A program made the position numbers and the translations under genes. A model generated the notes under the pieces. That model made no database searches, was not told the origin of the DNA, and saw nothing but the letters and a program-made list of their open reading frames with translations. Below, piece by piece: positions 1,365 through 24,118 of a DNA stretch of 27,180 nt; within the stretch, counting starts at the first letter, position 1; the number at the start of each line of letters is the position of its first letter. This DNA is from a virus, in IMG/VR virus record IMGVR_UViG_3300017779_000118, positions 1-27,180 of that record, one strand, 5' to 3'.

Positions 1365-1706
1365 TTAGTTCACCTCTATTGTTAAGAATAGTTCTAAAGT
1401 TTCGGATGCTGTAAATGGGCCGACTCCATCGAAATTGACTCTCGCTATCATCTCGCTACTTGTCTTAAATATGCCCAACTCTCTTATTACTTTTCCAGTA
1501 ATGTTGCTACCAGCACAAGTAACTTTTATTTCTAAAACATTTAGATTTGATTTTTCCTTTGCTATTGTTACAGTTGCTCCGCTAGGCACATCTAAAGTAG
1601 TTGACCTAGGGCTAGTTGAGTTTCCACCGTAGCCTATTTGTGCGCTAGCGGCTAATGTGCTTTCTATGTAACTAAGTACTTCTGCTTTCATTTCATCGGT
1701 AATCAA
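1365..1706 (-). CDS. Small tail-tip protein (tail-collar-like fold)
   Basis: 113 aa. It opens with a helix (MITDEMKAEVLSYIESTLAASAQIGYGG), followed by strands ending in GKVIRELGIFKTSSEMIARVNFDGVGPFTASETLELFLTIEVN. The core 'G..IRElGiF' resembles the first domain of tail-fibre or collar proteins that set up fibre attachment. It overlaps the giant hub gene's TGA by two bases with a TTG start (TTGA). This is favoured because GGAGG lies seven bases before the TTG, inside the end of the hub gene, while the next ATG (1691) would be too far. It precedes the tail fibre gene by one base, so it may be the adaptor that holds the fibre. Confidence 0.65.
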   Translation of the reverse strand: MITDEMKAEVLSYIESTLAASAQIGYGGNSTSPRSTTLDVPSGATVTIAKEKSNLNVLEIKVTCAGSNITGKVIRELGIFKTSSEMIARVNFDGVGPFTASETLELFLTIEVN

Positions 1707-4700
1707 TATTCTTCCTCCACTAAATTGTCAATCGTTGCACCGCTATTGAATCCCATTGGGGTGGTACTAGTATTTAGGGCTGCCCCGAATCCTAGAGTCA
1801 AGCCGTCTGAGTTTATTCTTCTAACTAAAAGTTTGCTAACTTTAATATCAAGGGAATCTAATATATCAAAGGTTATCGCCCTTTCATCAAATTCTTTAGC
1901 CCTAATATCTGCGTGTATTTTTTTATTATCTGAAAGTAATTCAGCAAATCTATCCTCCAATTGTTTTGTAAATCTGCCTAGTTCTAATTTAAGCATACCA
2001 GTAAAAGTATGTTCTATTTGTAATACAATGTATTCGTCTAGTTCTATGCCTTCCCTAGTTAGTTCTACATTGATTATATCTCCGGCCTGTAATTGACTAA
2101 TGTTATTATGGCCAACTGTAATATTTAGTCTAACATTGTCAGAGGAATGTAGCCTTAGCAATTCCAGTGCCCTTTTATTTACTGCCTCTTGAGAAGTTAA
2201 TTCAGATTCATACACTTCTAGGGTTTTCCTACCTAGTTTGTTTATGCTTCTCAAATCCTTTCTAGAGCCCTTGTGTACTTTACCATAAACAATCACTTCG
2301 TTATAGAAATCAAATACAGATTTAACTTTATTATATTCGTATATTTGGTAGTCTCCATTATCGCTAAGTGTTACCTTGGGGTAGTTTAGTTCACTAGTAT
2401 TATTTACTAATTTAAAAGTAGAATCTGCTATTTCGTATGTTGAGGAAGCAGACGGGTCTTCGATTAAGACCATATCTTTTTTAGATAGAATTAAGTTAAT
2501 TGCAGAAAATAAATCAATCCCCTTATAGTTGGGTGCTAAGAAATATGGGAAGTCACTATCTTCAGAAGTGAATTCTATATCATTTGTTTCTAGCAGGTCG
2601 TTGATTAAATCAGTACCCTCGTAGCAAATGTCTACAACGCTACCAATCATTCCTCTTTTAGCAGCAGCAGATACTTCTCCGTTTACGGTTAGTGTGATAG
2701 GTTCACTAATAGATGCTACCCCCAAAGTTTCTTCCATCTTATCAAAGGATAGGAAATGCCCTATATCGTCTCCATTATCAGTATAGGTCATAGAAGTCTT
2801 GTAAACATTATCTCCATCAGAAACAGCCACCGTTAAGTCACTATTAGGAGTAAGTAAACTTTCCATTTTATCGGGGAATCTCTGCAAGACCCACTGTGAA
2901 TCAGACTGGGCATCCATATCTAATGCGACATACATAGAAAGAGCCGCCTCTTTACCTCCTGTGTTATGGAATCTAGTAAAGGAGCGACCTCCACTTTTAT
3001 TCCTAACCATATAAGAATTGATTTCGCTAGGGTCATAACAATTATCTTCTCCACTAACTTTAGTGTATGCGGATGATAGAGTATTCAACCTAATTTTATT
3101 AGGTGAGTGAGTATAAAAGCACACATGATTAGGCTGCATTATTCTGTAAAAATCGGTAACTATTGCAGTATCTAAAGTTAAGATATGTCTTTCAGTAGAA
3201 TTGGTAGTGTCTATTTCGTGAGAAATTACATACGCTATGACATTAGGAGTTTGTTCGTTTAGTGAAGGAGTGTTTGCTAATAGACTGGAATATGTTTGGA
3301 CAGTAAAATTCTCATCGTAGTACTTCCCTTTTTCTGAAACCAAATAACATCCGGTTAAATCATTCATTAATCTTAGAGATTTTCTATTTATATTAGCGAA
3401 GGCTACTGAATCAGCAGTACCCGAAGTGTCATCTTCATCAAAATAAGTTATACTAGTTATATCAGTATCTAAATCAATGGCATAACTATACACATTTCTA
3501 TTTCCAGCCGCTTTATTAGTATTGGTTGCAGAAGAAGTAAGATATAAACGGGGCTTGAATCCCAACATTACCCCATCTGCATCTTTCGCATATGTTCTAT
3601 TTGCGTGAGAGCCCACTCCGTCTTCGTGCTCGGCAAAGTCGTTTAGTATTCCCATTCCAACTAGGCAAAACGGGGTAGAAGAACTTTGGGAACTTCTAAA
3701 GGCTATAGAACTAATAGCACCGGCAACGGTTCCCTTTGAAACCAAACTGCCTCCACCTTCTTCAACATCAAACCGGTCTAAAAATATAGGTAGAAATGGA
3801 TTATACAAACATTCGTTTCCAGCAGGTGCGCTATTATCGGGCTCGCCCAAACTTCCATGAAACAACTCAAATAGTTTGAAGGGATGGTCACTAATACCTG
3901 ATGCAGACTGGCTAGTGTCTCCTAAAATGCTAGCCGCATCAAAATCAATAGGAAGATATGAATTAAATGTTTTAAATCCATTAATAGTGCCGCCTTGGTC
4001 TAGAACTACAGTGTTCTGCCTACTCCAAGCACAGGTTCCGTCACCATAATGTCCAGACCCAACATCATTTACGATTATAGACTTCATCATATGTGGTTCC
4101 TTTCTAAGTTGGACAAATGTATCTTCCTTTCCATGCCCCCGTATAGTAGAAACCCTACTGGTAGCCGAACCGTCAGCATTTCTCATAGTTCCTAAAGCAT
4201 ACAAAGTGCCAGCAAAATAAGCCGTACCATTTGTTTTTCTAGCCTTATCCATTAGGACTATTTTCCAACTACTGCTGCTTCCTTCTGTAGCGGCTACCTC
4301 CCCAATATATCTTCCATCGGAATCTGCTATTATTTCTCTCTGCCCTGTTAAGGTATTAGGATTTACAGAAGTATCTGTTGCAATATAAGAACCGAAGGTT
4401 AGAGTCTGACTACTCTTACTCCCTCCAGTAGTAGAAGAAGATAGTACGAAATGAGTAGCATCGGTAATGCTAGCAATAGTAGCACCGGTTGGTATTCCAT
4501 CCCCGCTAACTGGCATTCCTGCTTTTATTGATGTATTAGAAGAATGGGTTATGGTAGTTCCATTATTATAAGAACAGCCAGCCACCGTATAATCGTTGTA
4601 ATCTCCCGTAGCGACTTGAGAAGTACTTGCAAACAAAGTACCTAGAGTATCAAAGTCGAAAGCCGAATACTTGAATTGCGGTAAAACTCTGTCTTTAGAA

Positions 4701-7700
4701 ATTATATTTTCGGGGTCTATTTGATTGAAAGCCCAATCGAAAACTACTTCGGTTAATCTCATTAAAGAAAATCTCTTTAATTCTGAAATAGTTTTATCGG
4801 CAGAGATAATAGAACTGGAAGTGTAATTAGAATCGTTTAGTGTTAATGTATTAGTTCTACCGATGGTGCTTTCTTTAATATCCGAAGAAGAAGTTTCTAC
4901 AGGGGCCTCTAGTGAAAAGAAATTATAATTAGAAATTTCTCTAGTCTGACCGCTATACATTAGACTGTCTTTTCTTTCAGAAGAATAAGGGTGAAGGTCA
5001 GAAGTTGCAAAAAGAAACATTCTAGATATCTTATAGTCTAATAAGTCTAAATGGTCTTTGGCAGTAAATACATTCTCATGAGTACCCGCTACATCTGCCA
5101 CTGTATTAGTTACGCTTGGGTCGTGAGTAAACAGAGTTCTTGTTAGGGCAACATTTTCTGCTCTTAAATTAGAATCGAAAAATCTAGAACCATATACGGA
5201 AGTATTTCCTCTAGATTCGGGAAGTAAGTGGGTACTAAAATGCGGAGCAGCATTCTCTCCCGTCTTACCAACTCCGATAATAGGATAGTCTTCGCTCCAA
5301 TTCTCTATGTAGTTTCCTAATCCAAATCTATAGGAACTGGCGTAATATGGAACTTTGCTTACGGTTTCTAAATAATACTCAGAAACATCTTTTATGTCAG
5401 TAGTGCTAGTAGTATTAATTCTATTATAGTTTCCCTTTTCTAAATTTATTATTCTAAAATAAGGAGAACCGTATTTTTCAGAATAATAAAACTCTTCAGC
5501 CATATCGTCGTAATAGAGTGGGTAATTCATAGACAGGGTTTTGTAGGTGCTGTCTTCATTAACATGGGGACTTAGCAAAGATATTATTTTTCCAGTATGT
5601 AAATGTCCAGCATTTAGTAAAGCCAATTCATGAGTTAGTTTTCCTGTCTCTAAGAAAGTACTCTCTGCTAAAATCTGTATGGTGTGAGTGCTAATAGTGG
5701 AAGTTAGTTTCCTATCCAAGTAAACATAAATTGTATCGTGGTCTGTATGAAGAGTCACTGTAATGATTTTACCTAAGAAAACACCGTTGGCATAAACTGG
5801 TTTATTATGTAATTTTCTAGGACTAGCAGTAGTAGAAAGTAGGGCATCACTAGTAGTAGTTCCTCCTCCTGCGTCTTTATCAATTGTAAAATAAGTGTTA
5901 CCGGAAGTACCTGTAGTGCAAGCCCCTAAATCTGTAAAGGTAGTATCTTGTGTATTTGCAAAATTGATATCTACTCTTCCTAAAGTTAGAGGCATATGCG
6001 GAGCAATTTCTATTAGTGTTTTTCCATCTGCTTCTTTAGTACTTAGTATAGAAAAGTCAATTAGCGTATTTATGGTATCGAAGGTTTGGAATGTTTTGCT
6101 CGCTGCGTTATCATCTAGCCTTGCTTGGAATGCAGAATCACTTTTTATTCTTACAGTATCACTAAGATAATATCCCAATGCTCTAGAATCTTGACTTGCA
6201 GATGTCCCTACCAAGGTGGCAGATTCAGCACCAGTGCTAGTTAGGCTTTGTCCACTCTCGAAGATTATCCCCTTATCGGAAGCCGCAGTTAAGTCAGTAC
6301 TAGTATTTTGGAATGAGTTAGTAGAAAGTGCCTTGTTGAAAACATAGTGTTTAGAAGTTGCTTCCGCCCCTACTGCCGCACTCGATGGGCTACTAGTAGG
6401 GTCACTTTCTACTAAAGCATAATTTTCTAAAGTGACTCTTGTACTGCTATCAACGGTAGCGATTTTTCCAACATAAGAAGTGTTAGCATGGTCTACATGA
6501 TAAGCATAAACATGAGTGCCAACATCAGCAGTAGCATCAAAGTAATTATCGGAATCAAACTCTACAATTTTGCTATTGAAGGAACATGTCAAAAATGGAC
6601 TACCGGTAATTAATTTTACATTGTTAAAGGGACTATTACTAGAATAAATAATATCTTTAGAATGAAGAGTATTTTTATTTACAGAAGGTGATAATAATTT
6701 ACTATAACTATTCCTGCCACTTATCTGTAAAATCCTTTGACCGCTTTCTTGATAGGAGTCTATGGTTTCTATCGTGCCATTTAGTTTCTCTATCTCTATT
6801 TCGTAATCTCCATTAAGCCACTGTAGGCCACTATTAGTCCCAGTGCCATATGTTTTAGTTACGAATTTAACGGTCATTAATTTTTTATCTACATCTACAG
6901 ATGTAACATTTAATTTAATATAGCCATAGTCTTTAGAAATAATGTTGATAAAAAGATTATTTATTCTATTGTCTACTAATGGGAAATCTGTAAGTATTGT
7001 ACTGTCCTGTCTATTAAATGCCCTACGGTATAGTTTATCTCCTACGGATATAGTAGGATTAGATGAAACAGAAAATAGCCCTGCTACTCCATCTGTCTTA
7101 TGATATTTATTGGAGCCACTCACTTCTAAAGTCATAGGTTGGCTTGCAGGGGAAGATGCAGTAGCAGCAGTAAAGGTTCCTATAGAATCTATAATAAACA
7201 ATACATCTCCAATTTTTATTTCGTCATTAGCATTTAGGAAACTGTTCAAATCGTGAGTAGTAGTAAAAGTGTAAGTCGGGGAAGATGCCGAAAGAACCTC
7301 CACTTCTAAATCAAACCAATCTTCTAAATTAGCCCTGTGTACTTTATGCCTAACTCTATATGGCATATTTTCCGTAATCTTTTTATTTTGTATTCTGAAT
7401 AAGTCGGCAATCTTAGTTTCTCCATAGCCTCCTCTTTGTCCATACGATTCATATACGATATTATCATAAACGCCAAATACTATATTAGCCCTATCGGGAG
7501 AATTTCTATAATGTAAGTATCTTTTAGGCCCAGTAAATGCCCAAGTGCTAGACAAGTCGTCGCTGTCTCTTCTTGCGTTAGGGAATACATCGTCATAGTC
7601 AGCCCAATCAGCACTATTCAAACTTAGTCCTTCATTAGAAGTATTAGTATGAGGGTCATCTAAAGTCACTAAATTATCTACTACTTGCGCCTTTAAATTA

Positions 7701-8626
7701 TATTTGCTATAATCTACAATATCTTCTGCGTAGGAAGTAATAGTTGTAAAAGTATGAGTTAATCCAGAATATAAATTAATTGCACCATTAGTATTAGTAG
7801 TTTGGCAATGGGAATAGTATTTGGTGCTATGATTCAATTGTCCATCTTTATCCATGTACTCATCAAAGAAATAAAATAAAGGTCTAGAACAAAATAGTTC
7901 ATATTGCAAATTCATTTTTATTCCTGCTGAAACTACAAGAGGGTAAGTGTCTTTAGCAGGGCCTCTGAATAACATAAATTTAGTGCCCTTTGTTATTTCT
8001 GTTCCTAGCCTTGGCTCAAATTCAAATGAGTCTCCTGCTGTATCGTCAGAAGTAACTTGAGTTACTCTAGCAAAATGGTGTTTGTTATGGTCGTCAGAAT
8101 GTAATAATATGAAGTAGTGGTAGTTTGTAAAATCGGCATCGCTATAGTTAGAAGTAGCATCAATTAATTTGACTCCTTCATCAGTAGCAGAATCGTAGCA
8201 TTTTATTTTATATCCCTCTGTATTTGCTAGGTTCTGCCTTTCTGTATTAGCAGTGCTAGTACCTACTTCATCAATAGTTAGTGCGGTGTTGCTATCATCG
8301 GGAAATATTGCAGTGTAAAGTCTATCTGTAGAAGATAGGGTTTTTACTATATTTATGTGGGGATTTGTAGGAACTTGGTAGTTAGTAGAAGTAAATTTAA
8401 ATGAACTTGCGTTTCCTGTAGTAGCCTGAGATAAAGTTATTTGGCTACTGCTATCAAAACTCTTCATGAAGGTGTTGTCCGGTATATTAGTTCCAGTAAC
8501 TAGCATACCTGCCTGTAAGTTAGTTGTGGATATGCCTGTAACAGTGGCGGTGGAATTGGCTGTCCCCGACTTAATTAAATTAGTATATTTGCCTTCGTTA
8601 GTCAGTACTACTATTCTATCACTCAT
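1703..8626 (-). CDS. Giant baseplate hub / receptor-binding tail protein
   Basis: 2307 aa, the largest gene. The C-terminal 330 residues resemble a tail hub (gp27/gpD-like). They run from FFDFY-like text FDFYNEVIVYGKVHKGSRKD (about 2105), through SQEAVNKRALELLRLHSS, to LQAGDIINVELTREGIELDEYIVLQIEHTF (about 2178), then a coiled segment and a short end. The rest is mostly beta-strand, Ser/Thr/Asn/Asp-rich and probably made of many extracellular-type domains. A short motif A-G-M-x-V-x-G-x-x-I-P occurs at 39-49 and 1369-1379. No enzymatic site was identified. Hub domains joined to a long adhesin portion suggest that attachment and tip functions are in one chain. GGAGGT lies six bases before the ATG. 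It is likely the main host-contact protein. Confidence 0.75.
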   Translation of the reverse strand: MSDRIVVLTNEGKYTNLIKSGTANSTATVTGISTTNLQAGMLVTGTNIPDNTFMKSFDSSSQITLSQATTGNASSFKFTSTNYQVPTNPHINIVKTLSSTDRLYTAIFPDDSNTALTIDEVGTSTANTERQNLANTEGYKIKCYDSATDEGVKLIDATSNYSDADFTNYHYFILLHSDDHNKHHFARVTQVTSDDTAGDSFEFEPRLGTEITKGTKFMLFRGPAKDTYPLVVSAGIKMNLQYELFCSRPLFYFFDEYMDKDGQLNHSTKYYSHCQTTNTNGAINLYSGLTHTFTTITSYAEDIVDYSKYNLKAQVVDNLVTLDDPHTNTSNEGLSLNSADWADYDDVFPNARRDSDDLSSTWAFTGPKRYLHYRNSPDRANIVFGVYDNIVYESYGQRGGYGETKIADLFRIQNKKITENMPYRVRHKVHRANLEDWFDLEVEVLSASSPTYTFTTTHDLNSFLNANDEIKIGDVLFIIDSIGTFTAATASSPASQPMTLEVSGSNKYHKTDGVAGLFSVSSNPTISVGDKLYRRAFNRQDSTILTDFPLVDNRINNLFINIISKDYGYIKLNVTSVDVDKKLMTVKFVTKTYGTGTNSGLQWLNGDYEIEIEKLNGTIETIDSYQESGQRILQISGRNSYSKLLSPSVNKNTLHSKDIIYSSNSPFNNVKLITGSPFLTCSFNSKIVEFDSDNYFDATADVGTHVYAYHVDHANTSYVGKIATVDSSTRVTLENYALVESDPTSSPSSAAVGAEATSKHYVFNKALSTNSFQNTSTDLTAASDKGIIFESGQSLTSTGAESATLVGTSASQDSRALGYYLSDTVRIKSDSAFQARLDDNAASKTFQTFDTINTLIDFSILSTKEADGKTLIEIAPHMPLTLGRVDINFANTQDTTFTDLGACTTGTSGNTYFTIDKDAGGGTTTSDALLSTTASPRKLHNKPVYANGVFLGKIITVTLHTDHDTIYVYLDRKLTSTISTHTIQILAESTFLETGKLTHELALLNAGHLHTGKIISLLSPHVNEDSTYKTLSMNYPLYYDDMAEEFYYSEKYGSPYFRIINLEKGNYNRINTTSTTDIKDVSEYYLETVSKVPYYASSYRFGLGNYIENWSEDYPIIGVGKTGENAAPHFSTHLLPESRGNTSVYGSRFFDSNLRAENVALTRTLFTHDPSVTNTVADVAGTHENVFTAKDHLDLLDYKISRMFLFATSDLHPYSSERKDSLMYSGQTREISNYNFFSLEAPVETSSSDIKESTIGRTNTLTLNDSNYTSSSIISADKTISELKRFSLMRLTEVVFDWAFNQIDPENIISKDRVLPQFKYSAFDFDTLGTLFASTSQVATGDYNDYTVAGCSYNNGTTITHSSNTSIKAGMPVSGDGIPTGATIASITDATHFVLSSSTTGGSKSSQTLTFGSYIATDTSVNPNTLTGQREIIADSDGRYIGEVAATEGSSSSWKIVLMDKARKTNGTAYFAGTLYALGTMRNADGSATSRVSTIRGHGKEDTFVQLRKEPHMMKSIIVNDVGSGHYGDGTCAWSRQNTVVLDQGGTINGFKTFNSYLPIDFDAASILGDTSQSASGISDHPFKLFELFHGSLGEPDNSAPAGNECLYNPFLPIFLDRFDVEEGGGSLVSKGTVAGAISSIAFRSSQSSSTPFCLVGMGILNDFAEHEDGVGSHANRTYAKDADGVMLGFKPRLYLTSSATNTNKAAGNRNVYSYAIDLDTDITSITYFDEDDTSGTADSVAFANINRKSLRLMNDLTGCYLVSEKGKYYDENFTVQTYSSLLANTPSLNEQTPNVIAYVISHEIDTTNSTERHILTLDTAIVTDFYRIMQPNHVCFYTHSPNKIRLNTLSSAYTKVSGEDNCYDPSEINSYMVRNKSGGRSFTRFHNTGGKEAALSMYVALDMDAQSDSQWVLQRFPDKMESLLTPNSDLTVAVSDGDNVYKTSMTYTDNGDDIGHFLSFDKMEETLGVASISEPITLTVNGEVSAAAKRGMIGSVVDICYEGTDLINDLLETNDIEFTSEDSDFPYFLAPNYKGIDLFSAINLILSKKDMVLIEDPSASSTYEIADSTFKLVNNTSELNYPKVTLSDNGDYQIYEYNKVKSVFDFYNEVIVYGKVHKGSRKDLRSINKLGRKTLEVYESELTSQEAVNKRALELLRLHSSDNVRLNITVGHNNISQLQAGDIINVELTREGIELDEYIVLQIEHTFTGMLKLELGRFTKQLEDRFAELLSDNKKIHADIRAKEFDERAITFDILDSLDIKVSKLLVRRINSDGLTLGFGAALNTSTTPMGFNSGATIDNLVEEEY
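1707..1718 (-). promoter_or_regulatory. Ribosome site selecting a TTG start
   Basis: GGAGGAAGAATA precedes TTG at 1706-1704 on the minus strand. The strong GGAGG core sits seven bases before the TTG but 22 bases before the next ATG, so TTG initiation is supported. The site lies within the last codons of the giant hub gene. Confidence 0.55.
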
Positions 8627-11865: not shown

Positions 11866-12072
11866 TCACTTCATTTTCTTGGTCTGCTTTTCCATTTCTT
11901 CTGCCTTTATCTCTTCAACTATTCCATGTATTGCTAATAAATCCTGTACTAATTGGGCTGGCATCTGATAGATTTCTAATGGGCTTATCCCTAACGCTTG
12001 TGCCAAAGTGTAGACGACTAAGAGGCTTCCTGTTTGGGCATCTGTTTTACCAGACCTAATTCCCCGCCTCAT
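11866..12072 (-). CDS. Tail assembly chaperone, -1 frame extension (T part)
   Basis: 68 residues from the ATG overlapping the first frame's stop (TAATG). It starts with basic MRRGIRSGKTDAQTG, followed by helices (SLLVVYTLAQALGISPLEIYQMPAQLVQDLLAIHGIVEEIKAEEMEKQ). No ribosome site precedes this ATG, because the upstream bases are the A-run. It is therefore most likely made by -1 frameshifting from the first frame, giving a 190-residue fusion (120 residues, then Arg-Leu, then these 68). Re-initiation at the TAATG is the alternative. The last codons run into the tape measure's ribosome site. The helix text with 'LGISPLEIY' resembles the second domain of lambda-like GT proteins. Confidence 0.7.
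   Translation of the reverse strand: MRRGIRSGKTDAQTGSLLVVYTLAQALGISPLEIYQMPAQLVQDLLAIHGIVEEIKAEEMEKQTKKMK
12022..12070 (-). promoter_or_regulatory. Possible frameshift-stimulating stem-loop
   Basis: Seven bases after the slippery site, GAGGC (12070-12066) can pair with GCCTC (12026-12022). Inside, TCTG and CAGA form a small stem around GTAAAA, with a possible GGG/CCC pair between. The distance is in the usual 5-9 base range for stimulators. The outer stem is only five pairs, so folding should be tested. Confidence 0.4.
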
Positions 12073-12437
12073 TAATCGTTTTTTTCTTCATCCCCCGACA
12101 TTAATTCGAAAGGGTTAGGCATTACTTCTTTTATTTGATTCCCTACAAAGGGAGTGAGTCTAATTAAATCAACTGCGGATAAACTGGGTTCAGTTTTCTC
12201 GATGAAATTCTCAATCATGTATCGGTACATTGCGTTCAAGTCCAAATCAAAACTTTGGGTCTTTGAATCAATGTTCATTAAGGAATTAGCGGCCTTTTCT
12301 ACTTCTAGCCAAGTTGGTTCCTTAATCCAAATCTTTAGGTATTCATCACTATCCGGTGCTACTTGAATCCAGTGGCACTTTGCTTCTGTGAGTGCAAACA
12401 TTACACTCTTGTTACTTACTATTTTTTTGTTTAACAT
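12072..12437 (-). CDS. Tail assembly chaperone, first frame
   Basis: 121 aa (start ATG 12437, with AGGTGG five bases upstream; a GTG three codons earlier overlaps the site). It lies between tube and tape measure genes, the invariant place of G/GT-type chaperones. The protein starts with MLNKKIVSNKSVMFALTEAKCHWIQVAP and continues through EKAANSLMNIDSKTQSFDLDLNAMYRYMIENFIEKTEPSLSAVDLIRLTPF, a strand then helices, as in many tail chaperones. It ends in an acidic GDEEKND. The last codons contain a slippery sequence, so a share of ribosomes should continue into the next frame. It should coat the tape measure protein during tube growth. Confidence 0.75.
   Translation of the reverse strand: MLNKKIVSNKSVMFALTEAKCHWIQVAPDSDEYLKIWIKEPTWLEVEKAANSLMNIDSKTQSFDLDLNAMYRYMIENFIEKTEPSLSAVDLIRLTPFVGNQIKEVMPNPFELMSGDEEKND
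12078..12084 (-). promoter_or_regulatory. Programmed -1 frameshift slippery site (A_AAA_AAC)
   Basis: The minus strand holds A AAA AAC in exact codon phase (GAA AAA AAC GAT TAA), two codons before the first frame's stop. A -1 tandem slip leads to CGA TTA ATG AGG, which is the frame of the second chaperone part. Heptamers of the X XXY YYZ type between tail tube and tape measure genes are conserved in long-tailed viruses. Phase, place and product all fit. Confidence 0.8.
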
Positions 12438-12454
12438 ATCTTCCACCTACTAAA

Positions 12455-14970: not shown

Positions 14971-16092
14971 TCATCCAATTATGTAAACTAAATCCTTCTT
15001 GCCATCTAAGATTTCCATTGCTTCTTTCTTTAGAATATCGTACTTTTCTTTAGTGGTAATGTTTGCCCCAGTTTCAGCAATGAGAATGGTTTGGTCATCG
15101 TGTCTTAGAATCTCTGCCGCTACTAATTTTGTAGCCGCTTCGTGTATTGCCGCAGGGACTCTAGAATCTCCAGCGATATAAGAAACTATTACAGAGTTAT
15201 TAGTATGATACGGGTAGTCTTGTAGGAAAAATATCCTGCCTTCATTACCGATTTTCCAAAAACTACCAATTCTTTTCATGTCTTGCTTATCTGTAAAGGC
15301 ATCAATGCTAATAGAAGCAGAAACATCTCCGGAAGTTACTGTAGCAGAAATAGTGCAATCCGAACCATCTTCCCCTTCTAAAAGAGAAGAGATATTAATT
15401 TTAGTTCCATCGTCGGGGTCAGTACTTGCATAAAAGAAATCTGAAATGTTAAAATTACTAGAGCCATCTTCTGTCAAACTCTTTCTATTATCTGCTCCCG
15501 TAAACGAAGCGGTCTTGGCGGGATATTGTTCATTTATTAGAGACACTATTTCCTTAGCCGTTGTTTTAGTACCGAACTTCTTACTAAAATTAGAATCTGA
15601 TAAACTCGAACCCACGCTATTACTAGCAGTAAGTGTAAATGTAGTAGAGCCATCGGGCAAAGTCAAGACAATTGTATTTAATTTTGCATAATCCAATATG
15701 GTTATACTTGCCTGTGCCGAAGCCAATTCTTTGTATGAATTCCCCTGCCAAACTTGCAAACTTACAATCTTTCTAACTTTCATATGTTGCAATTGCACAA
15801 AGCCAACATATCCTCCATAATATGCGTCTGCGGGATGTCTACTAAAATTAAAATCGTGGAATTCGTGTTCATGCCTAATGGGTCTATAGGAACGCTTTAC
15901 TTTATCGTCAATCATTCCTTCTACTCTTTTTATTATAGAACCTACTTGTACTTGGGTAGGATTTGTACCAGCACCGAAAGCAGGTATCTGTAATAAATCC
16001 GATACTGCGGTTTTGTCTGTATAGAATCCCTGCCCTGTAGAATAATCTGCATTAATTGTAGTGTAGTCACTAGGGGAAAATACTGTTGGCAT
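14971..16092 (-). CDS. Head-tail adaptor with inserted beta domain
   Basis: Likely binds the portal and connects it to the tail. The N-terminal part (about 50-70: VQVGSIIKRVEGMIDDKVKRSYRP) and the C-terminal part (about 310-373: VPAAIHEAATKLVAAEILRHDDQ and KYDILKKEAMEILDGKKD) form the helical frame typical of HK97 gp6/SPP1 gp15-type adaptors. Between them lies an unusually large beta-rich section (about 120-270). It has a pattern like LTLPDGSTTFTLTAS, TTAKEIVSLINEQYP and DGTKINISSLLEGEDGS, similar to 'IN'-type domains of hook and tail proteins. Typical adaptors are 100-200 residues, so this is about twice as long. The ATG at 16092 follows AAGGTG by six bases; a GTG three codons earlier overlaps the ribosome site. 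It directly follows the 483-aa gene. Confidence 0.6.
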   Translation of the reverse strand: MPTVFSPSDYTTINADYSTGQGFYTDKTAVSDLLQIPAFGAGTNPTQVQVGSIIKRVEGMIDDKVKRSYRPIRHEHEFHDFNFSRHPADAYYGGYVGFVQLQHMKVRKIVSLQVWQGNSYKELASAQASITILDYAKLNTIVLTLPDGSTTFTLTASNSVGSSLSDSNFSKKFGTKTTAKEIVSLINEQYPAKTASFTGADNRKSLTEDGSSNFNISDFFYASTDPDDGTKINISSLLEGEDGSDCTISATVTSGDVSASISIDAFTDKQDMKRIGSFWKIGNEGRIFFLQDYPYHTNNSVIVSYIAGDSRVPAAIHEAATKLVAAEILRHDDQTILIAETGANITTKEKYDILKKEAMEILDGKKDLVYIIG

Positions 16093-16093
16093 T

Positions 16094-17545
16094 TTAAGCA
16101 CCTTCTTCTATCTGTTCTTTTACTGTAAAGTAATTGTGAAGTATTTGGTCTATTTTATCTGAAAGGGGTTCGTTTAATCTATACTCGTTATCTTCTGACG
16201 CACTTGTGTCTTTCATTCCTTCCTCTATCCTAGCAATGGCATCTTGGATTTGACTCTCCTGTATCTCACCATCTTTTAGTTTAAATTTTTCTCCAATTTC
16301 TTGAAGTACTGCTTCCCTATCTTCGCCCTCTAACTCGTCGGGTATCTGATTATACATTTCAATTGCTCCCCTATACATAGGTGCATCCTTTCCGTATAAA
16401 TCTGAAAGTATTCCAACCTCTGTCCTATTGCCTTTTTTCTTTCCTCTATATTCGTATGCAAATGGACTTACACTAAACATTCCCTTCGGTTGGTTTTGTA
16501 TTTTAATTCCATATTTTATATCTGACCTAAGTGAAAATGTAGGGCCACTTTCACCGGCTTCGAATTCCATAACTCTAAGTTGTCCCTTTGGTGACATGGT
16601 GACTTTGAACTTTTCATCTTTGAGTCCTTGCCCCCTACTTGCCTCTACTATTCTCTTTAGTATTTCTTCTTCGAAGGCAGATACCATCTCTTCCTCAAGG
16701 CTTCCATCTTCCTCTACTATTTCATCAATAAGTTTTCCAGCAACATCTGAAAGAGTCGGCTTACTTCCTAAATTAAAGGGCTCAATGTCTTCCTCCAATG
16801 TACCAATTAGGTATTCATCTCCCTTCTCTTGAGTAAAATTTCTTTCGGCGTTCTTATATTGAACATTTGGATATAATGACTGCAAAAACTTTTTTTGGTT
16901 ATCTGTGTTAGAGTATTCAAATGTAACATCCCCAGTATAGTCGAATATATGAACTGTTCCGGTAGACTGTTCTTCAGTTCTATTAAACTTAATTGACATA
17001 TTATTTTTAGGATTTTTAACTTCGGGATATCGAGACAGGGGTACATGAGGAATGTCTTGACCGATTTCTGCCCTTTGGGGAATGTCTTCAAAGCCCCTGA
17101 TATATTCCTCGATATCCACACTAGAATCTAAATCAACATCCTCATCAGAACGCCTCTTACCGTATAGGCTATATCCTATTATTTCTAGACGCTTGGTTTT
17201 ATCTTTCATATCTTCTAAAGTATAGTCCTTTACTTTATCATATATCCTACTTCTAATTAGTTTAGTTTGCTCTCCCAGCCCACCTTCCATTACTAAATCT
17301 AAGATTTTAGTATCTTCTATCTGCTCAATTTTCTTTAGACCTTCTTCCGAAAAAGAACCTTCGTCAAATTCTATAATGGTACTTCTCTGTGACCTATCTG
17401 CAAGATTGGGTATTGAATCCACGCCTTCTAATTTAAATCCATCCTTTCCTTTATTTTTACCAGTGATGGTATCTTTAATCTTTCTTTCGAAATCAGAGGG
17501 CCATTCCCTCAATTCGTTTTGTGCATTCACTACCTTAGTGGGCAT
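16094..17545 (-). CDS. Unknown acidic 483-aa protein in the neck region
   Basis: Highly charged, Glu/Asp-rich protein, no membrane segment and no cysteines. The N-terminal 150 residues are helical (KKIEQIEDTKILDLVMEGGLGEQTKLIRSRIYDKV). The middle has beta-like text (TGTVHIFDYTGDVTFEYSNTDNQKKFLQSLYPNV) and an acidic helical stretch (GKLIDEIVEEDGSLEEEMVSAFEEEILKRIVEAS). The last part reads FKVTMSPKGQLRVMEFEAGESGPTFSLRSDIKYGI and ends with helices. Its length is near that of portal proteins, but the portal wing/stem/crown pattern is not seen and the position after the capsid gene is wrong. It overlaps no real gene. A neck or internal virion protein is possible. Confidence 0.72.
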   Translation of the reverse strand: MPTKVVNAQNELREWPSDFERKIKDTITGKNKGKDGFKLEGVDSIPNLADRSQRSTIIEFDEGSFSEEGLKKIEQIEDTKILDLVMEGGLGEQTKLIRSRIYDKVKDYTLEDMKDKTKRLEIIGYSLYGKRRSDEDVDLDSSVDIEEYIRGFEDIPQRAEIGQDIPHVPLSRYPEVKNPKNNMSIKFNRTEEQSTGTVHIFDYTGDVTFEYSNTDNQKKFLQSLYPNVQYKNAERNFTQEKGDEYLIGTLEEDIEPFNLGSKPTLSDVAGKLIDEIVEEDGSLEEEMVSAFEEEILKRIVEASRGQGLKDEKFKVTMSPKGQLRVMEFEAGESGPTFSLRSDIKYGIKIQNQPKGMFSVSPFAYEYRGKKKGNRTEVGILSDLYGKDAPMYRGAIEMYNQIPDELEGEDREAVLQEIGEKFKLKDGEIQESQIQDAIARIEEGMKDTSASEDNEYRLNEPLSDKIDQILHNYFTVKEQIEEGA

Positions 17546-17555
17546 TTAACCATCC

Positions 17556-18206
17556 TCACATTAGCCACTTAGCCCAAGCAGCACCTTTCTGAATTGCAGT
17601 ACCTAGTCCTAAACCTGCTTGCGGCGGCTCATATGACATTTGTCCCTGTGCATCTAACCAATATGGGCGACCATACATGTCCTGTCCACTAGGAGGAACT
17701 GGATATCCACTTCCGTTATTAGCAGCACCTTGCATCTGTTGGAATTGTTGGGTTTGTCCTGTCAATCCCGCAATTGCCATTCCCGCAGATGGTTGTTGTC
17801 CTCCGCCGAATCCTTGAGATTCTAAAAATTGAGACTTGGCCATCTTTCTTTGATTGATGACTTCTGAATCAATAGCAGAATTCAATAGATTAAGAATATC
17901 CAACTCTATGTTTTCAGCAGTAATCTTTTCATATTCTCTAAGAGCATCAGGGTGTATTCTAATAGTACCAGTGGTATTATCTTGAACAAACTGTAGTTTA
18001 GTTAGCATTTGGCTAACTACCCTTTCGGTTACATCTTCCATGAGTTTTTCTAATGACTTTAGGAATTTATCTCCATGATATTGGAAAAACTCCTCTACAT
18101 GATTATCTTGCAAAGAAAGTAAATTATTTACATTCTTGAATTGTTGGTCACTTTGTTGTTGCACTGCTCCTAAAACAGTACCGTTACTGGTTCCTAGTAT
18201 TCCCAT
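17556..18206 (-). CDS. Unknown protein, helical N-half and Gln/Gly-rich C-half
   Basis: 216 aa. Residues 1-140 look helical and charged, with coiled-coil-like stretches (FKNVNNLLSLQDNHVEEFFQYHGDKFLKSLEKLMEDVTERVVSQML). Residues 140-216 are low-complexity and rich in Gln, Gly, Ala and Pro (GFGGGQQPSAGMAIAG, QTQQFQQMQGAANNG) and end in IQKGAAWAKWLM. The arrangement suggests an oligomerising domain with a flexible tail. GGAGG lies eight bases before the ATG and overlaps the stop region of the zinc protein. Its position between head and neck genes suggests a structural or internal virion protein, but no family is recognised. Confidence 0.7.
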   Translation of the reverse strand: MGILGTSNGTVLGAVQQQSDQQFKNVNNLLSLQDNHVEEFFQYHGDKFLKSLEKLMEDVTERVVSQMLTKLQFVQDNTTGTIRIHPDALREYEKITAENIELDILNLLNSAIDSEVINQRKMAKSQFLESQGFGGGQQPSAGMAIAGLTGQTQQFQQMQGAANNGSGYPVPPSGQDMYGRPYWLDAQGQMSYEPPQAGLGLGTAIQKGAAWAKWLM

Positions 18207-18209
18207 TCT

Positions 18210-18851
18210 TCATTCCTCCGTTTCTAATGTAGCACCTTGTTTAATCATTAAATGATTCAATCTATCTGTCAGAATATTTATTTCTCCAACGATAGTAATT
18301 GCTTCATGAGTAGCCGACTTATTATCTCCTAATGTGGGTGGTTTAATAAGCCATCCGGCAGAAATTAAACTACTAACATCTTCCTTGCTTAGTGTATTTA
18401 GTGGGCCTCTTTTAATCATCTTAGGCATTTTTGGAATAAAGGCTTTGAATTCTAGGCCATGCTGTTCTGCTAGAATCTGCTGCTGTAGCATCTCCATTTG
18501 TCTATGTATTCCGGAATGTTTAGGACAATATGTTCCTCGCATTGGCCTACCTTTAGTCACTTGGGTTAAGGGAATTGGTGGCCTCATGTAATCTCCACTA
18601 TCCCATGTATGGTGCATTCCGCAAACTACACAACGGTCTTTTAGATTAAACTTGTAACTGTATTTAATTTTTAGAAAAGATTTCCTTTCCGGTGCTAAAA
18701 CCTTAACTAATTCTTTCAATTGCTTCTTGGGTTTTATATTGACGCATTTGTATTCTTCTACAGGCCCACTTGCTCTTGCTCTTTGCATCGGTGGCAAAAA
18801 TGCCGATGGTGCAGTTGTATTCATTTGTCCTATTATATTTTGTTGAAACAT
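18210..18851 (-). CDS. Zinc-binding protein of unknown function
   Basis: About 213 aa. A likely zinc site is formed by CVVCGMHH (Cys 74 and 77, His 80/81) and YCPKH (Cys 109, His 112), about 30 residues apart, in a knuckle-type arrangement. Upstream is a basic region (NIKPKKQLKELVKVLAPERKS). Downstream are helices (HRQMEMLQQQILAEQHG, and INILTDRLNHLMIKQG near the end) and a short linker LSKEDVSSLISAGWLIKPP. It follows the GTPase gene; a TTG overlapping the GTPase stop is a possible earlier start, but the ATG at 18851 is preferred. Similar CxxC...CxxH modules occur in transcription and assembly factors. Whether it is in the virion or acts on DNA/RNA cannot be told. Confidence 0.72.
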   Translation of the reverse strand: MFQQNIIGQMNTTAPSAFLPPMQRARASGPVEEYKCVNIKPKKQLKELVKVLAPERKSFLKIKYSYKFNLKDRCVVCGMHHTWDSGDYMRPPIPLTQVTKGRPMRGTYCPKHSGIHRQMEMLQQQILAEQHGLEFKAFIPKMPKMIKRGPLNTLSKEDVSSLISAGWLIKPPTLGDNKSATHEAITIVGEINILTDRLNHLMIKQGATLETEE

Positions 18852-18856
18852 TCTAA

Positions 18857-19519
18857 TCAATAATCCTTTAACATTGTAGTTACGCCTAGGTAGACCATTT
18901 CCGGTTGGGATTTAGCCGACACGATGTATTTGAAAGTTGGTATGCCCTTATCATTTAACCTTTGCATTCCATATTTAAAAGGCTCGAATATAGGATGGTC
19001 TTGAATCTCTCCGTCGTGACTATATTTTTTTCCCCAAATATCATATTTATTCGCCCACATTCCTACCGCTATAGGGTAGTCGGGTTCCTTTTTCTTTTTT
19101 CCATTGGGCCAAGTATTAGCACAAACGGCATCCACTAAAAACTTCCAAGCGAGTTGATGGTCTAGGTTAGCCCCGCTATCTAGATGTCTATGGTCAATCA
19201 TAAAAATAATATATTTGACCTTTCTTCTTTTCATGTCGGCAATCCATTCTTTCCAATAGAAAGATTCTCCTCCAACATCTGCTGACTTTAGGGTATGGGT
19301 TTCTCCCTCGACCTTTATTGTTTTTCTAGTACCTTTGTGTAAGCCCACTGTTCTTTTTTTAATATCGGGTACTTCCCCTCTAGTTCTAAGTTGATGGTTT
19401 AAAGTAGTTTTACCTACCATTGTTGCACCATAAATGCCAAACGGAATAGCATGTATTCTTTTGTAAAATGCTATCGCCGCTTCAGTAATTACAATTGCGA
19501 AACCTGCGAGTACTGACAC
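18857..19519 (-). CDS. Membrane-anchored Arf/SR-beta-like small GTPase
   Basis: A P-loop GTPase with all five G motifs (numbered from the GTG start): G1 GATMVGKT at residues 31-38, a switch-I Thr in RTVGLHKG (T57, compare the TxG of Arf), G3 DVGGE at 81-85 (Arf has DVGGQ), G4 NKYD at 157-160 and G5 SAK at 201-203. The Gly pair after the switch-II Asp is typical of the Arf/Sar/SR-beta branch. An N-terminal hydrophobic helix (SVLAGFAIVITEAAIAFY) comes directly before the GTPase domain, the same plan as SRP receptor beta. The Glu in place of the usual switch-II Gln (DVGGE) may lower or change hydrolysis. I chose the GTG at 19519, six bases after GGTGG. In-frame ATGs at 19546 and 19573 overlap the preceding gene and lack clear ribosome sites. 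It sits in a virion gene cluster after two membrane proteins. Its role is unknown; action at the host membrane is inferred. Confidence 0.88.
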   Translation of the reverse strand: MSVLAGFAIVITEAAIAFYKRIHAIPFGIYGATMVGKTTLNHQLRTRGEVPDIKKRTVGLHKGTRKTIKVEGETHTLKSADVGGESFYWKEWIADMKRRKVKYIIFMIDHRHLDSGANLDHQLAWKFLVDAVCANTWPNGKKKKEPDYPIAVGMWANKYDIWGKKYSHDGEIQDHPIFEPFKYGMQRLNDKGIPTFKYIVSAKSQPEMVYLGVTTMLKDY

Positions 19520-19530
19520 ATTCAACCACC
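19520..19530 (-). promoter_or_regulatory. Ribosome site selecting a GTG start for the GTPase
   Basis: The minus strand reads GGTGGTTGAAT just before GTG. GGTGG with a six-base gap matches sites before other genes here (for example GAGGTGG before 9783). It overlaps the stop TGA of the preceding membrane gene. It favours the GTG start over the two upstream ATGs. Confidence 0.5.
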
Positions 19531-19743
19531 AAGAGTATGTGACCATGCGGATTGTAAACCATCTAAGCACCATCCTAATATGTTAATATCAAATACTCCT
19601 AATATATTCCCAATTAGAAATGACGCTAACGCCGCACAACTTCCCCAAAAATAGGCTCTAAATCTTAGAAACCAAATATCAGCAGAATGCGCTCTCTGCA
19701 AATCATACGCCATTGCGCCTTCATCAAAGCCAGTAAAAACCAT
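19522..19743 (-). CDS. Small membrane protein, one TM helix
   Basis: 73 aa with one clear hydrophobic segment at about residues 30-52 (YFWGSCAALASFLIGNILGVF), an N-terminal part rich in aromatic and charged residues, and a short Trp-containing end. A strong GAGGTG site lies seven bases before the ATG, and the upstream gene ends 11 bases away. Its stop precedes the likely GTG start of the GTPase gene by two bases, and the sequence around its last codons (GGTGG) is the GTPase ribosome site. This suggests tightly coupled expression and a physical link with the GTPase. Family unknown. Confidence 0.7.
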   Translation of the reverse strand: MVFTGFDEGAMAYDLQRAHSADIWFLRFRAYFWGSCAALASFLIGNILGVFDINILGWCLDGLQSAWSHTLGG

Positions 19744-19754: not shown

Positions 19755-20150
19755 TCATCTTTCGATAGCGGCTAAGAATTCATTTCCTACGCCTTCTGTT
19801 TCTATGGTAGAAATCATAGCAGGGGATGAACCGAAATTAGTATTATGCTTATTCATAGTCTCTCGTATCTTTCCCTTCTGTTCTTCTTCCTTTCTCTTCT
19901 GATGCCAAAAATGATTTACTCTTCTTTCTAGTAGATACATTTCTATCTTTTCGTTTAGTGCTAAATCAAATACTGCCTTTAGTATCATAATAGCCCCAAC
20001 GGTAATTAGGCCAAATAGTGCCGAGTGTGCTAAGGTAGTATATGGGAAATCAATCCCATAATTAGCGTAAAAAAATACATTCGCTCCGCTTACAGTCCCT
20101 ACAAAAAGGATAGTCATAACTAGTCGTGTGTCGTGTTCTAATGCTGGCAT
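19755..20150 (-). CDS. Membrane protein with two TM helices and charged tail
   Basis: 131 aa. Two hydrophobic helices are visible at about residues 10-28 and 40-65, separated by a short loop (NYGIDFPYTT). They are followed by a long charged helix (NEKIEMYLLERRVNHFWHQKRKEEEQKGK) and a flexible end. The charge pattern suggests both ends on the cytoplasmic side. It has GAGG seven bases before the ATG. It opens a run of three membrane-associated genes within the head/neck block. It is too small and lacks the second gene needed for a classic holin-endolysin pair, although a holin cannot be excluded. No known family is recognised. Confidence 0.75.
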   Translation of the reverse strand: MPALEHDTRLVMTILFVGTVSGANVFFYANYGIDFPYTTLAHSALFGLITVGAIMILKAVFDLALNEKIEMYLLERRVNHFWHQKRKEEEQKGKIRETMNKHNTNFGSSPAMISTIETEGVGNEFLAAIER

Positions 20151-21545: not shown

Positions 21546-22907
21546 TCACTGAATGTTGGTAATCTTACCTTGTCCCTTAAAGAATGAACAACCGACTTCA
21601 CCAATTGTGCGGTAAAGTGCTTGGTTTCCTAGGCGACCAACACCGAATGGGTTTCCATTGGAAATACCATCTTCGAAGTATTGTGTAGGTTTCATGACAG
21701 CCAACCAAATGTGGTCAGTATCAAGGAAAAGCAAATCGCTTAGTTTGCTAGTTGCGTTTCCTGTAGAAGCCATATCCTTACAAGGAATTAGTGGGATGTC
21801 GTAGTATGTTGCAACTCTAAATCCAACTTCTGCTCCCTTAACTCCACGAACACCATTTACAGTAGGAACTATTTCCTTTCTGTCCATGAATCTTTCTTGG
21901 CTTTGTAGTAGGTCTGCAATAGACTGAATTGTATCATATCCTGTTAGAATTACCTTTGGAGAACCGCCAGCAATTCGTAGGTTACGAATCATGTTGTTAA
22001 GTAGAGTTAGTGTTAGCGAGCGAACATCTCCACTAGCATATCCGGAACCAAAGTCTACTTCAGAATCTAGGAAAGATGCTGCACTGTGCCTTTCATCTCC
22101 GTAAATCTTACCCAAGTTGTTTGTTGCGCTTGCGGTATCAGTAGCAATAACTCCACCATCAATAGCCAAAAGTTCTGCACGACTTGTAACAATCTTGTTT
22201 AGAGAAGTGTAGTTTCTTTCGATGTTTTCTAGACGGCCTGTAGATTGGTTTGTTGATTCACCATAATGTTCTAGAGGCATAAGAAGCATCATGTTTTGTG
22301 CTTCTGCGTGAGCAATTCCCATATCTTCACGCATTTGCGCTCTAATATCTCCAATTCCATCGTCAATCTTTGCCATTTCCATTGCCAATTCAGAGAAATC
22401 GAATTGATGTGCAACAGTCTTAGGACTCATAAATAGTTGAGCGTAGGTTGGAGCCATAGCACCTAGACCATCTGCCGCAGTAGAAAGTCCAGCGTTTTCT
22501 GGAACGCCACCAATTAAATCAGCAGAAGGAGCATCTGCTCCAATTCCTGAATCTGAGGTATCTGAATCGTTTACAAGTGCTTCTGCAAGTGTGTTTCCGG
22601 AGCCACCGAAAGGTCGGCTCTTTAGAACTCTCCATCCCGAAGAAGAATAAGGTCGCTTTGAAATCATTGAAAGTGCATTTACTTCACGGTTTAGCATTGA
22701 CCAAACTTTCTGTCCGTAAAGAACATTGTAAAGTCCGGTTGTTGTGGAAATTCCAGTAACGCCACTTGCGGCAGCGTCGGCAATATCGTGAGCACTATGT
22801 AATCCCTGTACTACTCCCGCTTGCTTTAGAATATCGTTGCCGCCAAATGCGCCAGCCATTCCGTATGTTTGTGCTTCTAAGTCTCTAATTGTGTTAATAT
22901 ATCCCAT
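21546..22907 (-). CDS. Major capsid protein, HK97 fold
   Basis: Forms the icosahedral shell. The assignment rests on position directly after protease/scaffold, on length (453 aa) and on sequence character. The N-terminal region is Ala/Gly-rich and helical. It is followed by STTTGLYNVLYGQKVWSMLNREVNALSMISKRPYSSSGWRVLKSRP, which resembles the N-arm and E-loop region of HK97-type capsid proteins in archaeal tailed viruses. Later come an Asp/Ser-rich segment, a helix MAKIDDGIGDIRAQMREDMGIAHAE like the spine helix, and a C-terminal part with VILTGYDTIQSIADLLQSQERF and YYDIPLIPCKDM. That segment fits the A-domain with its typical 'Y..IPLI.c.dm' strand. The start has GGGGG at good spacing. No cleavage site can be read from the sequence. 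Confidence 0.85.
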   Translation of the reverse strand: MGYINTIRDLEAQTYGMAGAFGGNDILKQAGVVQGLHSAHDIADAAASGVTGISTTTGLYNVLYGQKVWSMLNREVNALSMISKRPYSSSGWRVLKSRPFGGSGNTLAEALVNDSDTSDSGIGADAPSADLIGGVPENAGLSTAADGLGAMAPTYAQLFMSPKTVAHQFDFSELAMEMAKIDDGIGDIRAQMREDMGIAHAEAQNMMLLMPLEHYGESTNQSTGRLENIERNYTSLNKIVTSRAELLAIDGGVIATDTASATNNLGKIYGDERHSAASFLDSEVDFGSGYASGDVRSLTLTLLNNMIRNLRIAGGSPKVILTGYDTIQSIADLLQSQERFMDRKEIVPTVNGVRGVKGAEVGFRVATYYDIPLIPCKDMASTGNATSKLSDLLFLDTDHIWLAVMKPTQYFEDGISNGNPFGVGRLGNQALYRTIGEVGCSFFKGQGKITNIQ

Positions 22908-22920: not shown

Positions 22921-23559
22921 TCAATTTCCAGCGAGCCTGTTTAAGTCGGCCCATGACATGTTTGCTACATCATCCATAGATGGTAGTGCAACAGATGGTG
23001 TCTGCTGTGATTTGAGAATTTCAGATTTTCCAGTAGAGAATGACTTTCGTAGGTCAGCCAATTCTTCCTTTAGTGCGCTAACTTCAGACTTTGCATCATA
23101 GTTAGCCTTTGAAATGATAGTGTTTCTTTCAGAAACTTCAGACTTAAAGCGGTTTGCAAAAGTCTTTTCTAAGTTACCTAGAGCAATCTTCTCTAGTTGT
23201 TCTGACTTGTATTCCGAGTATGCTTTCTCGATTACATCAGGGGAAAGGTTTAGTGAAGTAATTTCACCATTGTCAAAAGCCTTGACGACCTTTGCTTGCT
23301 TTTCTCCTACTGGCTTTCCGCCACTAATTACTACACGGTCTGCTGGTTCTCCAGTTTCCATATGTAGTGTGGTCTGGGCCTTTGCTTCTTCATCCATGTA
23401 TTCCATAGTTTCCTCTTCAGTGTCCATCATTTCTGAGTCCATCATTTCTGCGTCTTCCATAGCCGCAGGGGATTTCTCCTCGTCTTCTTTCCTTAGGGTA
23501 TTGACTTCCTCTAATAGAGTGTCAAGTTCCTCAAGTGCTTTTTCTAGTTTGTCGGTCAT
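22921..23559 (-). CDS. Scaffold protein from internal in-frame start
   Basis: An ATG at 23559-23557 lies in the same frame as the protease gene at its codon 178, exactly where the protease domain ends and the acidic helical region begins. It is preceded by AGAGGG and seven bases (AACGAAA), one of the better ribosome sites in the window. The product would be a separate 212-residue scaffold starting MTDKLEKALEELDTLLEE. Nested protease/scaffold genes with internal starts are known from phage lambda (C/Nu3) and others. That this site is used is inferred from the strong ribosome site and its match to the domain boundary. Confidence 0.65.
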   Translation of the reverse strand: MTDKLEKALEELDTLLEEVNTLRKEDEEKSPAAMEDAEMMDSEMMDTEEETMEYMDEEAKAQTTLHMETGEPADRVVISGGKPVGEKQAKVVKAFDNGEITSLNLSPDVIEKAYSEYKSEQLEKIALGNLEKTFANRFKSEVSERNTIISKANYDAKSEVSALKEELADLRKSFSTGKSEILKSQQTPSVALPSMDDVANMSWADLNRLAGN

Positions 23560-24090
23560 TTTCGTTCCCTCTTTTTCTTGTTTCAAAATATCGAATTTCG
23601 CTTCCGGATTAATTCCTTTTTCGCAGATAGTCACTTCGTGTAATTCTAGTTTGCTAATTTCGCTGTATTCGCCTAATTCCGAATGTTGCTTTTTAACTTT
23701 TTGAAGTGCCTGTCCCCCTATGCTAAAAGACCTTAATGTTCCTTTGCGAATTCCCCTGTTTATTTCTTTGGCTTTTTCGATGTCATCTCTTAATTTTATT
23801 ACTACAAAAAATCCCACATCATCTACTTCGGTTTTCCATATTTTTCCATTTTTATCTCTATATGATTTTACTACTTCTCCTACTTGGACATTTGAATGGT
23901 TTGTCATTACATTTCTAAATTTTGATTGCTCCATGTAATTGTTTACTGCATCTTGTAAGGCTTTGAGTGTGATTAAGTCATTCTGTTTATCAACGATTTC
24001 TATGCTTGCATATCCTCCAATCATTAAATCGTCTTGACTTTTGAGTATTTGGAAGTCATTTTCTCTATGCGATAGAACAGCAGACCCCAT
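22921..24090 (-). CDS. Prohead serine protease fused to scaffold domain (HK97 U35 type)
   Basis: Capsid maturation protease that digests the scaffold and may trim the capsid protein in the prohead. The N-terminal part (about 1-170) has the U35 pattern: GGYASIEIVDKQND near the start, catalytic His in MTNHSNV at about residue 65, catalytic Ser in RSFSIGG at about 123, then LELHEVTICEKGINPEA, which matches the family strand ending in a Pro-rich loop. The rest (about 178-389) is acidic and helical with a Met/Glu-rich stretch (AEMMDSEMMDTEEETMEY) and coiled-coil-like segments, typical of a scaffold or delta domain. The ATG at 24090 is the likely start; a TTG three codons upstream is in frame and overlaps the GAGG ribosome site. 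It directly precedes the major capsid gene by 13 bases, the usual order. Confidence 0.9.
   Translation of the reverse strand: MGSAVLSHRENDFQILKSQDDLMIGGYASIEIVDKQNDLITLKALQDAVNNYMEQSKFRNVMTNHSNVQVGEVVKSYRDKNGKIWKTEVDDVGFFVVIKLRDDIEKAKEINRGIRKGTLRSFSIGGQALQKVKKQHSELGEYSEISKLELHEVTICEKGINPEAKFDILKQEKEGTKMTDKLEKALEELDTLLEEVNTLRKEDEEKSPAAMEDAEMMDSEMMDTEEETMEYMDEEAKAQTTLHMETGEPADRVVISGGKPVGEKQAKVVKAFDNGEITSLNLSPDVIEKAYSEYKSEQLEKIALGNLEKTFANRFKSEVSERNTIISKANYDAKSEVSALKEELADLRKSFSTGKSEILKSQQTPSVALPSMDDVANMSWADLNRLAGN
23560..23574 (-). promoter_or_regulatory. Internal ribosome binding site for scaffold start
   Basis: Within the protease coding sequence the minus strand reads AGAGGGAACGAAA just before ATG. 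The GAGGG core and seven-base spacing match the sites of the head genes nearby. It encodes the unremarkable residues KEGTK, so the purine run may be kept for translation rather than for the protein. Confidence 0.6.
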
Positions 24091-24118
24091 TTTCCTCAAC
24101 TCTTCCTTTTTCCATTTG

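Follow-up and report, generated by a model that had tools for sequence, protein, structure and literature searches.

A putative Ras-superfamily GTPase with a predicted membrane helix in the virion module of a magrovirus clade

Genes at the locus and their genomic setting

The window, meaning the whole 27,180-nt stretch of IMG/VR record IMGVR_UViG_3300017779_000118 that was analysed, contained a 238-codon ORF at positions 18857-19573, which a sequence-only reading had singled out as a membrane-anchored small GTPase within a viral structural gene cluster. The ORF was found as described, on the minus strand (a point left unstated in that reading), and the placement among structural genes held: the GTPase gene belonged to a cassette of five genes (m131, m73, the GTPase gene, g216a and g216b) between the head genes and the connector-side gene g376. 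The genes discussed here were:

22921-24099, minus strand: prohead protease (PF04586)
21546-22907, minus strand: major capsid protein, HK97-type (PF17236; phrog_24667)
19755-20150, minus strand: m131, a two-helix membrane hairpin (MTxLFVGxxxGxN and FGxxTGxxxxxKAxxD) with a charged C-terminal tail
19522-19743, minus strand: m73, a small membrane protein with one hydrophobic segment and an invariant RAHSAD ahead of it
18857-19519, minus strand: putative membrane-anchored small GTPase, 220 aa from GTG 19519 (222 aa from the alternative TTG 19525)
18210-18851, minus strand: g216a, a soluble protein with a probable zinc-binding CxxC...CxKH and an invariant RPPxPL
17556-18206, minus strand: g216b, a soluble, highly conserved protein with NNLLxLQxNHVExFFxYHG and a WW-domain-like C-terminal patch
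14971-16101, minus strand: g376, the connector-side gene at the other cassette flank, common to sister magroviruses and haloviruses

The long GTPase start at ATG 19573 was ruled out by homologues. Residues 1 to 16-18 of the 238-aa ORF overlapped m73 in a different frame and had no counterpart in relatives, and a start codon was present at residue 3 of the 222-aa form in 301 of 307 relative loci (ATG in 225, TTG in 40 and GTG in 36). That residue corresponds to GTG 19519 in the window; TTG 19525, two codons upstream, overlaps the m73 stop codon in TTGA. The resulting length of 220-222 aa agrees with the 220 aa given earlier. For alignment we used 102 GTPase sequences that were 58-87% identical to the window protein, all of which had Ser as the residue after the supported start. 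Mismatches between the GTPase and its relatives fell mostly at third codon positions (e.g. 29/13/96), indicating purifying selection.

The two small membrane proteins named as neighbours proved real, with two predicted hydrophobic segments in 43 of 43 m131 sequences and one in 39 of 41 m73 sequences. The second helix of m131 carried an invariant Lys58, and its charged tail would be cytosolic. No known relatives were found for g216a or g216b. The C terminus of g216b (GYPxPPxGxDxxGRPYWIDxxxGQxxYEPP) resembled the second half of a WW domain, with PF00397 matched in 6 of 31 members (best E 2.7e-4).

Linkage was evaluated across 205 distinct GTPase DNA sequences at loci with enough flank, where the GTPase was accompanied by m131 in 192/192, m73 in 194/194, g216a in 175/175 and g216b in 172/172 loci; as public contigs share samples, the loci counted are not independent of one another. 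Pattern-based scans found up to 371 GTPase-encoding stretches in IMG/VR, and relatives occurred on hundreds of marine viral contigs of the magrovirus order. The small_GTP model matched once per genome in nine of nine long viral contigs, at the GTPase gene, and in none of three sister contigs. The GTPase had a median identity to relatives of 71%, the capsid protein one of 76% and the ligase one of 58%. Genes neighbouring the GTPase abutted or overlapped, so the cassette is probably co-transcribed with the head genes. The only match in bacterial and archaeal genomes was on a 12.2-kb contig of a Maricaulis MAG (NZMJ01000024.1); since this contig carried the same viral cassette genes, a cellular origin was rejected, the contig being apparently a magrovirus sequence mis-binned into a bacterial genome.

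The capsid protein was related to that of halovirus HCTV-1 (25% identity), the ligase-protease-capsid gene order was as in magroviruses, and related contigs of 88-102 kb (up to 101.5 kb) encoded a family-B DNA polymerase. In capsid, polymerase, synteny and genome size (~90-110 kb) the virus belongs, at order level, with Magrovirales. Protease, capsid, connector-side, tail-tube and chaperone genes followed the same order as in Magrovirales (Aoguangviridae, Apasviridae) and Druskaviridae haloviruses, but all five cassette genes were absent, at profile sensitivity, from 27 sister magrovirus loci and from haloviruses. Sisters, whose capsid proteins were 44-55% identical to that of the window, had ligase, protease, capsid, g214, g376 and tail genes in common with it and carried a single ORF of 800-977 aa between the g108-position gene and g376; a whole-record search of three sister contigs found no displaced copy of the cassette. 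As the flanking genes were common and the cassette was absent, gain or loss affected all five genes together, as a single block between head and connector genes. In published work, viruses of this kind are assigned to marine Poseidoniales as hosts. The GTPase went unmentioned in the magrovirus literature examined; an earlier 'GTPase' annotation elsewhere, as in Philosof 2017, Prabhu 2025 or Zhou 2023, is possible, and a prior functional account of it seems unlikely.

Several other features of these genomes were recorded. The family-B polymerase occupied two places, mostly as two ORFs, in nine GTPase-bearing contigs (L303, L310, L321, L339, L353, L360, L164, L176 and L100) and was a single ORF in three cassette-less ones (L243, L271 and L284); a figure legend in PMC10768690 has the Aoguangviridae polymerase drawn as N- and C-terminal parts. 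Genes g124/g68 (11866-12446, minus strand) looked like two paired tail assembly chaperones, and a canonical -1 slippery heptamer, A AAA AAC, lay near 12072, just before the g124 stop; homologues were present in haloviruses, and HCTV-1 has an annotated chaperone pair and a joined frameshift product. A 2307-aa tail-region protein (1703-8626) contained a repeat-like stretch, SGDGIPTGATIASITDATHFVLSSSTTGGS, and a similar stretch occurred in a small protein near the sister-virus capsid gene (L243:11977-12447, L270:11872-12342).

Many unrelated small proteins in magrovirus structural modules began with a common tag, M(x)W-x-[DN]-I-[LI]-K (MWKNILK, MSWENILK and others), for example at L243:15937-21231, L004:8663-9881, L181:9056-9688 and L082:1199-1891; contig L082 is nearly identical to the window, and its tagged gene lies just past the window's right end. 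The tag was found in 429 coding-strand ORFs compared to one on the opposite strand, and was not found in haloviruses. With the tag removed, the non-redundant bodies formed 114 families, several of them with HExxH motifs. The tag has the look of a signal that sorts ejected cargo or packages it into the capsid, and this tag system is possibly more striking than the GTPase. The junctions flanking the GTPase were also insertion points for accessory small ORFs, in 18 (before) and 65 (after) of 294 loci. Many of these inserts were small ORFs with the W-x-x-I-L-K tag, and no homing endonucleases were recognised between cassette genes. The GTPase as a reader of the tag was considered and rejected, because cassette-less sister viruses are tagged as well.

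G motifs and predicted fold

All five G motifs claimed for the protein were present and in order, preceded by a hydrophobic helix:

19463-19519, minus strand: N-terminal hydrophobic helix, residues 3-21, with invariant G8-F9-A10 and a buried invariant E15, then K/R at 22-23
19403-19429, minus strand: G1 / P-loop GATMVGKTT (G33, G38, K39, T40 and T41 in 102/102)
19343-19354, minus strand: G2 / switch I RTVG (RT and G in 102/102; V in 100, I in 2)
19265-19279, minus strand: G3 / switch II DVGGE (E in 100/102, Q in 2/102)
19040-19051, minus strand: G4 NKYD, family WANKxD (N, K and D in 102/102)
18911-18919, minus strand: G5 SAK, family YIVSAK (S, A and K in 102/102)

The consensus over the 102 relatives was G[AS][TS]x[VA]GKTT, RT[VI]G, DxGG[E/Q], NKxD and SAK, the motif cores being invariant apart from the Glu/Gln of G3. 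One hydrophobic N-terminal segment was predicted in 101 of the 102, and AlphaFold2 modelled a helix at residues 2-24, bearing out the single membrane helix proposed ahead of the G domain. Glu15 sits ~7 residues from the cytosolic end of this helix, at a depth similar to that of Lys58 in m131, and the helix is joined to the first strand of the G domain by only a few residues. Glu in place of the catalytic Gln of G3 suggests altered hydrolysis. Slow or helper-dependent GTP hydrolysis is plausible, because a Gln-to-Glu change in Ras lowered hydrolysis to about one eighth according to a study cited in PMC6813200, where the wording, 'one-eighth reduction', is ambiguous.

A model predicted from the 102 sequences (AlphaFold2; pLDDT 78.6, pTM 0.78) superseded an earlier one built from 24 sequences (pLDDT 61) and showed an N-terminal helix followed by strands and helices in Ras-fold order. 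Searched with this predicted structure, Foldseek ranked Rab and Ras structures first (E ~1e-8 to 1e-9), among them mouse Rab5C (E 4e-9, TM-score 0.70 by target length); its 50 highest-ranked matches included neither Arf nor SR-beta. A profile search against PDB sequences likewise placed Ras first (E 0.05), with neither Arf nor SR-beta among the best 60, and identity to solved GTPases was ~15-20%. The window protein alone gave weak profile matches to TIGR00231 (8.5e-4), Roc (0.007), SRPRB (0.018) and Ras (0.021), below all Pfam and NCBIfam curated cut-offs. Weak Pfam matches across the 102 members were to MMR_HSR1 (99 members; best E 1.2e-5), SRPRB (89), Roc (86), Ras (86), G-alpha (28) and Arf (11). 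Such scores below the cut-offs point to divergence and not to membership of a different family. PHROG gave weak matches to Sak4 and guanylate kinase (best E 0.018 and 0.03), and another P-loop family, such as a kinase or packaging ATPase, was rejected, given invariant NKxD and SAK motifs and a Ras-like fold.

The predicted fold supports a Ras-superfamily small GTPase with one N-terminal membrane helix. The profile and structure checks therefore upheld the superfamily suggested by the sequence-only reading and not its assignment to the Arf/SR-beta branch, which was unsupported: SRPRB (PF09439) scored 15 bits against a cut-off of 25, Arf was matched in few members, and Ras and Rab led the PDB and Foldseek rankings. 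The protein fits best in a new branch of the superfamily that is specific to viruses, with GTP binding putative.

Possible roles in the virion cycle

Our best guess is that the GTPase is the switch subunit of a cassette inserted in the head-to-connector part of the genome in one magrovirus clade. We tentatively propose, at somewhat less than even confidence, that it acts as a membrane-bound GTP switch timing a late step of virion assembly at the host membrane. What the analysis shows is the predicted fold, the motifs, the hydrophobic anchor segment, strict linkage and core-gene conservation, whereas GTP binding and all of the following steps are inferences. The N-terminal helix would hold the G domain at the inner face of the archaeal cytoplasmic membrane and would pack against m131 and m73, perhaps via invariant Glu15 and Lys58 of m131. 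The GTP state could then recruit, or open a site for, g216a and g216b, and via them the growing head or connector, with GTP hydrolysis releasing the assembly; the net effect would be to time late, membrane-bound virion assembly. The similar predicted depths of Glu15 and Lys58, and the short link between helix and G domain, would fit a three-protein membrane complex in which the nucleotide state moves the helix. There is precedent for head assembly at a membrane, as head formation in phage T4 begins at the inner membrane and involves the viral membrane protein gp40. Sister magroviruses and haloviruses build heads without the cassette, however, which is therefore dispensable for head assembly in itself, and Glu at the catalytic position of G3, which may slow hydrolysis, also speaks against an assembly role.

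Retention in every locus with enough flank, together with near-capsid conservation, argues for a core function in the virion cycle rather than host manipulation, and makes the earlier suggestion that the protein redirects host traffic the less likely one. Among core functions, the main rival to an assembly role is an egress or lysis complex, in which m131 and m73 form an assembly that disrupts or remodels the membrane and the GTPase is the timer for its opening when infection ends, standing in for a bacterial-type holin. Three membrane proteins adjoining late genes, and no holin or lysin recognised among the scanned window proteins, are consistent with this; to our knowledge, lysis by tailed archaeal viruses is largely unexplained. 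Lysis genes are nevertheless usually fast-evolving and need not lie inside a head module, the soluble proteins g216a and g216b look like specific partners, and sister viruses manage without the cassette, leaving egress rather unlikely. Ranked third, and less probable still, is an ejection apparatus carried in the virion, whose packaged proteins insert in the host membrane at entry while the GTPase senses cytosolic GTP and gates passage of DNA or protein. The location of the cassette among virion genes and the capsid-like conservation of the GTPase agree with such an apparatus, for which the unrelated tagged proteins of the same module could be ejected cargo; yet the cassette proteins bear no signature of structural proteins, tailed phages usually have long helical ejection proteins, and tagged proteins are also found in cassette-less sisters.

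Ranked lower is a host-directed factor resembling SR-beta that would divert the signal-recognition or membrane-insertion pathway of the archaeon to the service of viral membrane proteins. Its layout is that of SR-beta and weak PF09439 matches recur across the family (best 3.6e-4), but the score of the window protein, a different G3 and unfavourable PDB and fold searches, added to a strict retention and capsid-like conservation unlike that of most host-manipulation genes, make this improbable. Hardly credible, finally, is a superinfection exclusion or counter-defence protein that sits in the structural module by chance: a membrane location, and a site beside accessory genes in some relatives, might suggest one, but the gene was in every relative with flank, at the same place and with the same partners, whereas the true accessory genes at that site were patchy.

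In a broader and more novel reading, the cassette may encode a G-protein machine of a prokaryotic virus, a GTPase-driven membrane complex of three proteins with two soluble partners, serving an essential step of the virion cycle (membrane assembly, genome delivery or egress); we regard this as possible and somewhat doubtful. If true, tailed viruses would have their first example of a step under GTP-switch control, and the machine would be of a class without a described counterpart. Ras-like switches are characteristic of membrane biology in eukaryotes, and viruses of prokaryotes are not known to control a step at the host membrane by GTP. Here a Ras-like GTPase was fixed as a core gene, with near-capsid conservation, in viruses reported to infect Poseidoniales, which are among the most abundant marine archaea, indicating that stable domestication of a small GTPase family by a virus of prokaryotes is possible. 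Through its four obligate partner genes it makes testable the question of how the host membrane serves a tailed archaeal virus in assembly, entry or exit.

Comparison with known GTPases

SR-beta has one N-terminal membrane helix with a Ras-like G domain directly after it, as does the viral protein, and its family profile was weakly matched by most viral members. The viral protein is, by contrast, encoded in a virus, falls below the PF09439 cut-off and is not favoured as SR-beta by PDB or fold searches, and it has DxGGE at G3 where SR-beta has DxPGH. With Arf/Sar/Arl (PF00025) and G-alpha it shares the T-[VI]-G of switch I, the D-x-G-G of switch II and a Trp 11 residues after the Asp. Unlike Arf, the viral GTPase has Ser in place of the myristoylated Gly2, a transmembrane-type rather than an amphipathic helix, and Glu where Arf has the catalytic Gln (DVGGQ), and only 11 of its 102 members matched PF00025. 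G-alpha, which was among the top matches of the first, weaker model, differs in its helical-domain insert; the viral protein has none, with ~16 residues from the P-loop to the Thr of switch I.

The rarity of such proteins in viruses, as first claimed, was borne out. No GTPase-named entry from a prokaryotic virus was among the best 50 viral structure matches, and a pattern-based scan of 50,697 phage records found no copy of the GTPase. The GTPase-named entries among those 50 all came from giant viruses of eukaryotes (Pithovirus, Klosneuvirus and others), whose Ras/Rab GTPases are likewise virus-encoded Ras folds and gave the best viral structural matches, but at ~8-19% identity to the window GTPase.

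In prokaryotes, Ras-like small GTPases are a minority feature, found in 17% of genomes according to a review (PMC4316618) in which the word 'phage' is absent. MglA and Rup, described there, are single-domain Ras-superfamily GTPases like the viral protein, and Rup group 1 also lacks the G3 glutamine. MglA, however, lacks the G3 Asp that is invariant in the viral GTPase and is usually paired with MglB, while no roadblock (mglB) match was found among the scanned window proteins. Neither MglA nor Rup as described corresponds to a viral cassette with membrane partners. What is new here is the cassette context in which this GTPase is found.
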